From Saccoglossus kowalevskii (lineage: Eukaryota > Hemichordata > Enteropneusta > Harrimaniidae), in contig NW_003143795.1 of assembly GCF_000003605.2 (NCBI RefSeq), forward strand, positions 243,343 through 307,342: 64,000 nucleotides of DNA. The letters are read 5' to 3'. The translations under genes were made by a program, and so were the position numbers. The notes beneath the pieces were generated by a model. It did not search any database. It saw nothing but the letters and a program-made list of their open reading frames with translations, and was not told where the DNA came from. The number at the start of each line of letters is the position of its first letter. Within the stretch, counting starts at the first letter, position 1. Below, piece after piece: positions 14,481 through 39,694 of the stretch.

Positions 14481-14527
14481 CTAGTCAGCTCCTGGATATT
14501 CACCAATCAGTTGCAAATGACGTAGAC
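14481..14527 (-). other. Terminal mini-exon of gene 1
   Basis: A 47-nt last exon, [15 protein letters not shown] then stop. It was found because the preceding exon ends at a conserved donor after SAVA in both paralogues, and homologous sequence after a CTAG acceptor recurs in the other gene (31933-31970, [12 protein letters not shown] then stop). The peptide completes the usual GH9 C-terminus. The separating intron is about 0.8 kb in both genes. Confidence 0.85.
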
Positions 14528-17500
14528 CTAGGTTGAATAGAAAAACAAGTGCAGTTTAGTAAAGAATGTGTAGATGTGGCTCCGATGATGTAAGGCTATC
14601 GAAGGTACTCTATTCTGTCGAATTCGCTAGGTTCAGGGAAGTCATGATGGACATCGCCATGACGGCAGCGTAGAGATACACCATGTACTATTAACATCAA
14701 TCAATACAGTGGAAATATCTGCCAAATGTTTTTTATAACGCTTTTTACATACACAGGCTGATTCAGTTTGCAGGGAAAAGTGATGATGTGACATGTACAA
14801 TCTTGCACAGGACGATGTTTTAGGTATTTGTGTCATTACGTTTTTTAATACCACAAATATTTAAAAAAAATGTACTTTGAATGAGCCTGACGCTTCAAGC
14901 CACTTCTACAATTTCACGTAAACAAACAATGTAATTTACACGCGTTGTGTACGTCGCTATGAGTCCTATGTCAAAGAGGACGCGGCACGATCACCACCGC
15001 CCTTTAAATGATGCATTTAAAATGAAAAGTTGTCGCTAATGTGTAAGTTTGTTTGTGTCATAAATTCATTTCATTTATTCTTATTTATTAGGGGTGGTAA
15101 TGAAAATGCCTATTTTATTGGTTATTTGTTTACTAAACATTCGACATTCAAAAGTAGCTGTGTTTTCAAGTTGTTACCATTCTACACCGTATTTCCTCGT
15201 TAGAGGGCGTGACATTTGTATAAGGTGAAGCTTTACATTATTCTCTGCTTTACAGAGTATGTGGCGTACCACCCGAACATTCTAGTGCTACAGGAAGACA
15301 CTCACCTGCAACGGCCGACTGGAATCCAGCATTAAAATCTAGAGTCACTTCGTTTTGATAATAGTTGTCACGTTTGTCCGAGTATTCGTCGTTCTCACCG
15401 GGTCCACCAACAAGCGCTCCATATAAAGTTTTTGGGTTGGGATCAGTTGAACGATATTCCGGCCAATCACATGATGCTGGGAGATCCGGACACGAACTGT
15501 AGTGTACAAGGATATTTACATTACATTAAATTACACTGCATTACGTCACGTCACGTTACGTTACGTTACATTGTATTGCATTACATTACATTACATTACA
15601 TTGCATTACATTACAATTTTTCAGTACACACCTTCCTCGATGATGTGGTTGAGTTGGTGGATTTGACCCAAAACCAACCACAAAGCTTCGTCCTGTACTG
15701 CCCATAGCGATGTCAACTTGCCCTTTGGCCCATTTCCTGTACAGTGTGCGCTTTGGTCCGGCTTCGGCAAGAGACAACGCGATAAAGGCTGTCGAAGCTG
15801 TAAACACAAGCAACTCATTAAAAATAGAAAAGTTAATTAGACATGATCGTACAATCTATGCCAGTGTTCTGAGACTCCATACACGAGTGTCAAAAACTCA
15901 CACTGTTTTGTGAACAAATACCAATGCTTTCAGCCCAAGGATTCAGGACATGATTAAACGAATCAGTGATAGAAAGATTCCCTGAACCAATCGCTAAGGG
16001 CGCTATAACCAACTAAAGAAAGTCGTTCTCCGATTCACTTAACCAGCGAATAACACACGATTGATTGACTAAACTGTTTCAGACTGGAGTGTTATTCGAC
16101 TTACTTGAGTATCTAAGTGAGCCCCACTCGTGGCGGAATACCATTCCATTCGGAGAGTATGGCAGATCGCCGATCACGGGTTGCCATTCAGTTAGAAACT
16201 TATCAATGATCAAACCTTTATAAGTTCTTGTATCGCCAGTCAATTTCAGTACCAACAACTGAAACATATGGAGAATGTGTAACCGTTTAGGGAATGTTAA
16301 TTGTTTGTAACTGTTCTATTGTGTGAAGATGGCTGCCAATAGAGGGCACAATTGAATTTTCAGGGCCACGTTGCTGGTCAGCAAAACTGGGGCACTGTGT
16401 TTATGTTGTTACCATGACAATAACATGCTGAAATATGATAAAAACTACAAAGGCCAAAGTCGCACTAAAATGATAACTTTGAGCACAATGCGTATTTTGG
16501 TTGAGATGAAGAGAACGTCTTCTAGCTAGCTATACAAACTACGGCACACAACGTATAAAAGTACTGACCCTGTACCCAGCAGTGACGTCACCCCATCCAA
16601 ACGAATACGGTCTGCCCGTTGGTTCGCTATTCAGTATGTCAATTGCTTGCGTTAGATACGTGGGTTTATTGGTTGCGTAATAGAGCCAGCACGCCGCAAA
16701 ACATAGGTCGTCCATATAGCTGATTGACCTGAAAAAATACAATATATTCATATCAAGGTATAACAAAACAATGTATAATTTACGTATTTTGACAACCGTC
16801 ATTATTGTGTGTGCATTTCTGTACGTGGCAATTGGCGTACTTACTTATAAAGTTCGGCCGCATCGACTATGCTGTTCGAGTAATATCCTCGGAAGTTGTC
16901 GCCAAACTCGTATAACTGTTCTGCATGTGTAACAAGTGTAGCAGCGTAGAATGGGTCTGTGATAAAACGAAATAAAATACAAATGTATAGCTAAGCGCAC
17001 GATTTCAAAGCCGCGACCTCGATACCTTCGTCTGAAGATGCCGCTTATAAGAGCGGTTGAGTTCTTAATGGGTGATTTTCTTTTCTCAATACCGTGATAC
17101 ATTACAACTATACAAAATCGCATTGGAAATCACACCGACCTCTGTCCTTGAAAACTACTGAAATTGCAGCCATAGCAGCGGCGGTAGCACATACAACATC
17201 AGTCCCGGGGTTAGTTTCGTTTACTTTGAATGCTGGTCTCTCCATGGTCATTTCCTCTGCACGCCCCCAGTAATCGTGGTCGCTTTGTTTTAAGCCAACC
17301 TAGGAGTACAATAACGCTATATAGTGATACTACCCACATATAATTGCCATCAGCTTTATTCACCCACGTTTAACATTGGATGAGGTTATACACAGGTGAA
17401 CGTGTCAGCATTATGTTCATACTGCTTATTACAAAGGATTACGATCCATCGTAAGTGGGAAATATTAATGATGTCGCGTACACAATAGGTCACGTCAAAA

Positions 17501-37900: not shown

Positions 37901-39694
37901 AACAAAAAATTTTTTTTTTAAATAAAAATAATCACGAACCTTGACAACTGTCCCCTGCGTCCATTTCATATCCATCGCGGCATGAACATACCCACGCACC
38001 TCCACCGTCTTTCTCACAAACTTGTTCACACGGACACGCTGTATTGGAGGGGGAAATTAGGTGAACACTACGTACACATGCAATCCAGGAACACTACTGT
38101 AGTATTTTATTATGCTGAAACACTGTATTTGTCGGCAAAAATACATACGATACTCACTCACGAAACGACATTAGTTGAAATTGTTGAGGCATTATTAGGT
38201 ATTTTTGTATTGAAATGTTTTTGATCCATCGAACAATCCATAACGTGTAATATTTTTTGTATGACGTTAGTCAATGTAATTTGATTGTTGAATCAAATAA
38301 AAAAGTCAGGCTTCATGACTTGTCAAGAAGCAAACCAGCGGTATTCGTAATATCGTACATAAGCCTACCTTCACACGTTGTTCCATCATTGGCTAAGGCG
38401 AACCCGTCGTTACAATCACACGTGTAGCTGGAAAGAACTCCCACGCACACTTGATCACATGTGCATACTGCCAATAAATGCAAAATTTAGATTTCGTTAA
38501 ACTGTGAATTTATATTAAACTTGGTGACCCGAACAAGATGATCTTAGCCATTAATATTCGCATTTCGGTATATATCCAAGAGCGGACCTAGGAATTTCCC
38601 CAAGACAGGGTTACAATATTTCCAATATTATATTTGACCTATAGAGGTCGTTTTTACTCCCAGGTAGACAAATTAAAATTCGACTTGGTAGATGATTGTA
38701 CATGTATGTCCTTTAGTAGATAATAATTAATTCATGTTATGTGCGGCACAGTGTTCATGTTATGATGTCATAATCCAATGTCTTTATCAACATGCAGTAA
38801 TAAACAACAATAATACAAATTACATGTTCTCACCCAATTTACATATTTATAAATATACTCTCAACTACTCATTATCCTTATTACATATTTAAACTTCCTT
38901 ACATACAAAATACATAACCAACCTGTACAGCCAATCTCATCATCATTAAGGACAAAACCATCATTACACGAACAACTATAACCATTGTCAGATTGCTCAC
39001 ATATTTGTTCACAAGGACACGGTGCAGAAGATGCAATATCTAGAGAACAAAACGGAAATGTTTTCGCAAAGCTATTCTGTTATGAAATAATTCAGTTCTG
39101 GGATATTAAAAGCATTATATTTAATATAATAATATAATACTTCTGAAATTCCCATATGTTCATCGATAGAATATTGTGAACGAACGTCTTTACAATCGAT
39201 GTCTTACTCTCAGTAGCGGAGGCTGCAGTGGTGGTGGTTGGGGCGTTGTTGCCATTGTTGCTGGTGGTGGGAGATTTGTTGTTGCTGCCACTTGTTGTGC
39301 CGGTAGAGAGACTCGGCGTTACTGTTATGGTGGTGGGCGGTGTTTTTGTTGGACGCACTATTCCAGGTTTCCCATGTTCTCCAATTGCTGTAGAAAGTTA
39401 GATAGTTGCGTTAGATTAATAGTTATTATTAACCGGGAAAACATAATTTAGTTGCTATATATCGTACAGTCCAAGACAATGTGATACTTGACTAGTAAGT
39501 CATACAGAATTCAGAGTATAATAAACATATTAATAAAATATTTATCACAAGTAGATATAACGTCATTTGTCAACTCACTCACCCACAGCAATGACTATAC
39601 CGATTATTATGACACATATAATAACACTGGCGATTGTGGAACCTATAATCGCAATAGATTTACAGTGGCTTGTCTGCAAACCAGCTTCCACCAT
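31933..39694 (-). CDS. Gene 2: tandem paralogue, membrane-anchored EGF-GH9 endoglucanase (14 exons, 683 aa)
   Basis: Same role and order of parts as the gene downstream of it. Exons, 5' to 3': 39694-39583, 39387-39208, 39039-38923, 38467-38369, 38038-37940, 37592-37311, 36941-36757, 34798-34639, 34504-34393, 34220-34061, 33780-33630, 33337-33172, 33044-32854, 31970-31933. They sum to 2052 nt, all GT-AG, with the same intron phases as gene 1. Residues 13-37 form the membrane anchor, 38-97 a short Thr/Ser/Asn-rich stalk, 98-202 three EGF-like modules and 203 to about 243 a calcium-binding-type EGF, followed by GH9. D296, D299, H604-H605-R606 and E657 occupy the catalytic positions, so it looks active. 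The first coding exon has an upstream AG acceptor (edge 39736), so a leader exon should lie above it. It ends three residues earlier than gene 1. Stop to the gene 1 ATG is about 9.1 kb, same strand, so the pair is a tandem duplicate rather than an operon. Confidence 0.9.
33085..33143. repeat. Intronic pentanucleotide microsatellite, gene 2
   Basis: ATTAC/ATATT units immediately upstream (in gene orientation) of the exon 12 to 13 acceptor region, in the same position as the longer tract of gene 1. Confidence 0.8.
35639..35731 (-). mobile_element. MITE family A, partial copy in gene 2 intron
   Basis: Has TGTAAACAAACAATGTATTT, GTACGTCGCTATGAGACCC and CGACCACCACCCTTTAA. TTAA at 35728-35731. The other end is shortened. 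Confidence 0.6.
35760..36530. repeat. Degenerate tandem repeat with interleaved hairpin head, gene 2 intron
   Basis: About five units of 105-165 bp, each with versions of GATATCTCAA, AATGAAACTTGGTACATA-ATGCTCT, GATTAGTTTG and CATATTAATTACCTAATTTG. The left edge carries GACTCCC and GAGCAAAG, whose complements follow in the same order (GGGAGTC, CTTTGCTC). Confidence 0.7.
37150..37230 (-). pseudogene. Duplicated 3' end of exon 6 in gene 2
   Basis: The minus strand here encodes the end of exon 6 (DLSGGYYD) followed by an intact donor (GTATGTG), plus matching intron sequence around AATAATTTGTCAAAG. The true exon end and its flank lie about 100 bp away (37311 onward). The copy lacks the rest of the exon, so it is a partial tandem duplicate that leaves a decoy donor site in the intron. 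Confidence 0.65.

Follow-up and report, generated by a model that had tools for sequence, protein, structure and literature searches.

Predicted type II membrane-anchored GH9 cellulases with EGF modules and mucin-like stalks in a seven-gene array of the hemichordate Saccoglossus kowalevskii

Can an animal cellulase be built to remain on the cell surface? To our knowledge, the GH9 cellulases of animals are regarded as enzymes secreted for digestion. The question is raised by a stretch of 64,000 nucleotides of the Saccoglossus kowalevskii genome (“the window”; contig NW_003143795.1, here C3460, at C3460:243343-307342 of a 572-Mb assembly), in which a first-pass annotation, made from the letters alone, had described two complete tandem genes that each join a GH9 catalytic domain to a type II membrane anchor, a Thr-rich stalk, and four EGF-like modules. 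We find that both genes (gene A and gene B) are real and that the pair is incomplete: they are members 6 and 7 of an array of seven EGF-GH9 genes, in which the stalk ranges from none to 818 residues. Judging from sequence, we think it fairly probable that these genes encode type II surface cellulases that digest beta-glucans on contact and that were assembled by phase-1 exon shuffling.

Positions of genes A and B are given in window coordinates and those of the other array genes in contig coordinates. The two genes lie on the minus strand, from the ATG of gene B at 39694 to the stop of gene A at 14481, and each yields a clean model of 14 exons, with 683 amino acids for gene B (39694..31933) and 873 for gene A (22834..14481). 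Exon ends were chosen by hand, guided by homology between the copies and by the GT-AG rule, which fits 26/26 introns; the phase series is identical in both copies, and the acceptor of gene A exon 2 (CATAAAG) is weak. Each protein begins with a short tail (12 residues in B, 14 in A) and an uncharged hydrophobic run of 25 residues, followed by the Thr-rich stalk, EGF1, EGF2, and EGF3 on one phase 1-1 exon apiece, EGF4 together with the start of GH9, and the rest of GH9. An earlier start for gene B, at an in-frame ATG at 39784, was rejected and the shared ATG retained, because the corresponding frame in gene A is closed by stops.

The architecture is carried above all by exon 6, a single open frame in both genes, in which EGF4 (DIDEC...) is followed by the first 50 GH9 residues. 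As both parts lie within one exon, the fusion is independent of any transcript or splice prediction. We searched the genome with this fused exon, scoring 150 of 512 candidates, so that the counts are lower bounds. Of at least 112 matches, the 7 that extend over residues 1-94 of 95 all lie in the array; at least 26 match the GH9 part alone (from residue 37-43 on) without an EGF, and at least 79 further matches start from the EGF end. EGF4 and GH9 thus share one open exon in the seven array members and nowhere else among the matches listed. A model of two separate genes, one with the EGF and anchor exons and one with the GH9 exons, was rejected on this common exon, present in 7/7 array copies. 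We see very little chance that the exons belong to separate genes or that the copies are pseudogenes, as genes A and B are free of stops, agree in phase, and show low ratios of nonsynonymous to synonymous divergence (omega). The comparison of A with B yields an omega of 0.185 for GH9, 0.28 for EGF1-4, and 0.55 for the stalk; the anchor exon gives 0.115, on only 33 codons and at a synonymous divergence (dS) of 1.44. These ratios indicate that the enzyme part is under purifying selection.

In Pfam, the GH9 domains of A and B score 472.1 and 460.9 bits (E 3e-141 and 8e-138; curated cut-off 27.7), the EGF-type modules are matched above cut-off by FXa_inhibition, cEGF, and EGF_CA, and no family other than GH9 and the EGF types exceeds its cut-off in either protein. 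The head of gene B aligns end to end, at E about 1e-142, with the solved chains 1ks8 and 3wc3 (433 and 460 residues), which we take to be the secreted GH9 enzymes of a termite and an earthworm. It shares with them the DAGD, HHR, and NEV motifs, which are also present in A, and its catalytic residues, counted by hand on the alignment, match D54, D57, and E412 of 1ks8_A. The two chains match the head only, to which A and B add the anchor, the mucin-like stalk, and four EGFs. With the Asp pair and the catalytic Glu kept in both copies (roles of the motifs as given in PMC11083476), the heads are expected to be active glucanases, as the first-pass annotation had anticipated. A bacterial origin of the head was rejected: T. 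fusca E4 aligns more weakly (E 1.6e-110 versus about 1e-142 for the best solved chains, presumably animal enzymes). A degenerate relic of GH9 exon 7 lies at 13014-13187 on the plus strand (Pfam 35 bits), with His at the position of the second catalytic Asp and no clear donor after it.

Within the EGF region, the calcium-binding signature (DIDEC...; classed by what we take to be the calcium-binding EGF consensus) occurs only in EGF4, and EGF1-3 have a compact CxC form. The nearest solved structures are thrombomodulin (E 1e-14), NELL2 (9e-12), and factor X (2e-7), a likeness at the level of the EGF module only. The suggestion of a ligand-like role finds no encouragement here, given modules of the FXa_inhibition/cEGF/EGF_CA types and an enzyme under apparent purifying selection.

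Within C3460:133343-327342, the array genes g1, g2, g3, g4, g5, A, and B follow one another on the minus strand; runs of N cut into the 3' side of g1 and g3 and the 5' side of g5. Exons 6-13 of g5 read without stops. In g1, g2, and g4 (L009, L011, L016), exon 8 is followed by a GC-AG intron with the donor GCAAGT, unlike A, B, and g5, which have GT; the automatic splice check demanded GT, and the stops in the readings of g1, g2, and g4 stem from the skipped exon 8. The GH9 family of this genome is large, with at least 33 GH9 N-terminal exons from the fused-exon search (the 7 of the array and the 26 without EGF) and one more at C2960:78889. In a tree of 15 GH9 genes, all from this genome and assembled from tblastn exon pieces, the seven array genes split from the rest with bootstrap 100, which fits a single origin of the fusion; placements of g3 (72 residues) and g1 (304) within the tree are weak, and the deeper non-array nodes have support of 36-66. 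In one further gene, g8 (plus strand, about C3460:315135-320801), a charged tail and an uncharged run of 26 residues are followed by GH9 without any EGF. Its exons 7-13 read without stops, its exon 6, which failed the automatic splice check, has an acceptor recognized by eye, and a start-codon exon was looked for in g8 and not found.

Whether the heads would be held at the membrane turns on the first exon. An anchor-like exon, in which Lys or Arg directly precedes a run of 22-25 uncharged residues and which ends in a phase-1 donor, lies 5' of g1, g2, g3, g4, A, and B, or 6/6 testable array genes, at 77 to 828 bases from the next exon; g5 was excluded from the count, its anchor region falling within the N run. 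With g8 added, the anchor scan gives a match in 7/7 genes versus 0/23 other GH9 loci (22 of the 26 EGF-free GH9 N-exons plus C2960:78889; three C344 places were omitted). Hydropathy, run length, and the position of the basic residue fit a type II protein in all seven genes, by cut-offs set after these had been seen. Signal-peptide-like exons with short hydrophobic cores occur at 4/24 other GH9 loci scanned (C2657, C3164, C4558+, C1993), in agreement with the view that ordinary animal GH9 enzymes are secreted; the hydrophobic frames L025 and L029 (C4410; low-complexity, no basic residue) were not counted, and L047, among the 24, has no GH9 N-exon. The long uncharged runs after Lys/Arg, against short cores elsewhere in the genome, lead us to prefer an anchor over a signal peptide, and the N-terminus of A and B is likely a type II signal anchor, as first proposed.

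Several observations weigh against this assignment. The scan cut-off of 2.35 was fixed once the array anchors had been identified, with g3 at 2.38 and g4 at 2.36, so that the 7/7 is partly by construction, and 38/313 random 3-kb stretches of the contig (which include the genes) also match. In array genes the scan began at the first known exon, and at other loci it began at the GH9 exon; it extended over ~3 kb for the majority of these other loci and over 968 bases for one, so that anchor exons lying farther away there could be missed. The stretch of gene A holds a second, unrelated match, and upstream of g3 and g4 there are several hydrophobic frames, from which the one adjoining the EGF exon was chosen. 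The tail has a net charge of +1 in A and of 0 in B, and the hydrophobic run ends in possible cleavage sites, AVA in B and VIA in both copies. Such small-residue patterns would suit a cleaved signal peptide and a secreted protein retained in mucus or matrix by its EGF and mucin parts. We regard this as distinctly unlikely, given 22-26 uncharged residues with Lys/Arg directly before them in seven genes and the short cores of the four signal-peptide-like exons.

Between the predicted anchor and the enzyme, the array genes differ in the stalk, whose exon encodes 60 (B), 93 (g2), 245 (A), 365 (g3), and 818 (g4) amino acids. All these exons are of phase 1-1 and free of Cys; Thr, Ser, and Pro together make up 47-49% in g2-g4, and Thr alone 27% in B and 33% in A. 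Tandem units of 87 nucleotides build the stalk of A, and repeats of 76 amino acids occur in that of g4. The stalk lies between anchor and EGFs in A and B and between EGFs in g2-g4. No Thr-rich exon was found in g1, the single match there being another frame of its EGF exons, and in g5 the stalk would fall within the N run. As a glycosylated mucin measures roughly 0.25 nm per residue, the heads would stand, very approximately, from near the membrane to some 200 nm out. The transmembrane mucins MUC3, MUC4, and MUC17 likewise combine an anchor, a Thr/Ser/Pro repeat exon of variable length, and EGFs; they are type I and are not known to carry an enzyme head. The repeat domain rich in Thr, Ser, and Pro is common to both, and a Pfam scan that covered A and B gave, up to E 0.1, no match to the SEA domain, a feature of transmembrane mucins. 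Tentatively, the array might encode cellulase-tipped membrane mucins that present one type of head at graded heights, forming a layered digestive or defensive glycocalyx.

How such a gene could arise is suggested by g8, in which anchor exon and GH9 exon meet in phase 1. With this junction and the 1-1 EGF and mucin exons, modules could enter with the frame intact. The origin would then comprise insertion of symmetrical 1-1 EGF and mucin exons into the phase-1 intron of a GH9 gene that, like g8, already had an anchor (g8 could represent this starting state), and tandem duplication of the fused gene; phase-1 exon shuffling followed by duplication is probably the origin, and we infer the order of the steps. 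An EGF motif search 5' of 24 other GH9 loci gave real-looking matches at L041 and L042, both 1-1 exons as judged by eye, and one that looks spurious at L036; at L043 an EGF-like exon was noticed by eye. The EGF-like exons of L041, L042, and L043 (C2960), 5' of GH9 genes, are of a different type and perhaps reflect a second recruitment into the phase-1 intron before GH9.

Since duplication, A and B have diverged unevenly, with dS of 0.62-0.81 in exons 10-13, 0.24 in exon 8, 0.17-0.19 in exon 6, and 0.087 in exon 9, a pattern that points to gene conversion. Intron 6 of B holds, at ~37206-37230 (minus strand), a duplicate of the exon-6 tail adjoining an A-type segment (92% identical), which makes copying from A into B the likely direction. 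Arrays of the pentamer TTACA occupy intron 12 of A (15516-15615) and of B (33089-33143) alike and are probably older than the A/B duplication.

What would such enzymes do? The predicted product is a type II protein whose short N-terminus is cytosolic; a signal-anchor helix would lead to an O-glycosylated mucin-like stalk and four EGFs, and an active GH9 endo-beta-1,4-glucanase would form the outer tip. The glucan-cutting head would be kept at a set height over an epithelial surface, in the style of a brush-border ectoenzyme, and would cut soluble or loosened beta-1,4-glucan of food or microbes where the sugars are taken up; with stalks of none to 818 residues, the array copies may act at different depths of the surface coat. 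Sucrase-isomaltase and maltase-glucoamylase belong to another hydrolase family, have two active subunits, and are not known to contain EGFs. The likeness is one of layout only, a type II protein with an apical sugar-cutting head; according to PMC5691722 and PMC4728165, sucrase-isomaltase has the type II orientation and is sorted to the apical surface by its O-glycosylated stalk. On this likeness we favour contact digestion at an epithelial surface, and we note on the other side that the sequence points to neither a tissue nor a substrate.

The main competitor of contact digestion is surface defence, in which tethered enzymes would cut the cellulose or beta-glucan of biofilms, algae, and water moulds at gill, skin, or gut. 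Arrays, length variation, and gene conversion are often seen at host-microbe surfaces, and the tandem array, the large differences in stalk length, and the conversion found here would all be in keeping with it. Nothing in the sequence points to defence, however, the GH9 head is well conserved, and at least 26 further GH9 N-exons without a fused EGF fit heavy dietary use, so we rate it as unlikely. Plant KORRIGAN1, as described in PMC4226561, has a cytosolic tail, a single N-terminal transmembrane helix, and only GH9 outside, and interacts with cellulose synthases. A tail, a helix, and an outside GH9, as in this and other class A GH9 enzymes in that account, are also predicted for the array genes, and g8, an anchored GH9 without EGFs, fits the KORRIGAN layout. 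A and B, with stalk and four EGFs, depart from it, KOR1 being described there without extra modules. A KORRIGAN-like trimming of the animal's own cellulose during synthesis is extremely improbable, as the cellulose synthase family Cellulose_synt (PF03552) gave 0 matches at E 0.001 in the assembly and was found in 3/14 control genomes; a cellulose-making role was rejected on this search. Contact digestion stays our preferred reading.

Table 1. Exons of genes B and A in window coordinates, listed from 5' to 3' of each gene
Gene	Exon	Content	Position	Strand	Basis
B	1	ATG, 12-residue tail, 25-residue hydrophobic anchor (predicted)	39583..39694	-	gene model, anchor scan
B	2	Thr-rich stalk, 60 aa	39208..39387	-	gene model, composition
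B	3	EGF1 (phase 1-1)	38923..39039	-	gene model, Pfam
B	4	EGF2 (1-1)	38369..38467	-	gene model, Pfam
B	5	EGF3 (1-1)	37940..38038	-	gene model, Pfam
B	6	EGF4 + GH9 start, one open exon	37311..37592	-	gene model, Pfam, genome search
B	7	GH9, second Asp of DAGD	36757..36941	-	gene model, structure-chain alignment
B	8	GH9	34639..34798	-	gene model
B	9	GH9; dS 0.087 to gene A, likely conversion	34393..34504	-	gene model, dS
B	10	GH9	34061..34220	-	gene model
B	11	GH9	33630..33780	-	gene model
B	12	GH9, HHR motif	33172..33337	-	gene model, structure-chain alignment
B	13	GH9, catalytic Glu (NEV)	32854..33044	-	gene model, structure-chain alignment
B	14	C-terminus, stop	31933..31970	-	gene model
A	1	ATG, 14-residue tail, 25-residue anchor (predicted)	22717..22834	-	gene model, anchor scan
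A	2	Thr-rich stalk, 245 aa, 87-nt tandem units	21154..21888	-	gene model, repeat scan
A	3	EGF1 (1-1)	20863..20979	-	gene model, Pfam
A	4	EGF2 (1-1)	20506..20604	-	gene model
A	5	EGF3 (1-1)	19972..20070	-	gene model, Pfam
A	6	EGF4 + GH9 start	18890..19168	-	gene model, Pfam, genome search
A	7	GH9, second Asp of DAGD	18422..18606	-	gene model
A	8	GH9	17140..17299	-	gene model
A	9	GH9	16845..16956	-	gene model
A	10	GH9	16569..16728	-	gene model
A	11	GH9	16105..16258	-	gene model
A	12	GH9, HHR motif	15632..15797	-	gene model
A	13	GH9, catalytic Glu (NEV)	15306..15496	-	gene model
A	14	C-terminus, stop	14481..14527	-	gene model

Elsewhere in the window there are minisatellites at 29281-30247, 45468-46016, and 63404-64000, with units of 23, 37, and 27 bases, and a LINE-type reverse transcriptase frame (RVT_1) at 41816-43303 on the plus strand, broken by a 306-base N run. 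An Rfam scan of the window gave 0 matches.

In the literature, no open-access paper on an EGF-GH9 protein or a membrane-tethered animal GH9 was recognized by title or abstract start among the matches listed; the search covered open-access full text, with subscription papers mostly and protein databases outside it, so automatic annotations may exist. The term EGF does not appear in the main text of PMC6011409, PMC12198962, and PMC11083476, which deal with animal cellulases and digestive enzymes. For the first-pass annotation, then, the observation is confirmed and its interpretation partly supported.

If expressed as predicted, these genes would put an animal cellulase to a new use: membrane-contact digestion of beta-glucan, invented independently and present in at least seven copies, most of them on mucin stalks that differ in length. 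This would parallel the contact digestion of starch and sucrose in vertebrates, and the array would be a clear example of phase 1-1 exons shuffled into the gene of an enzyme.

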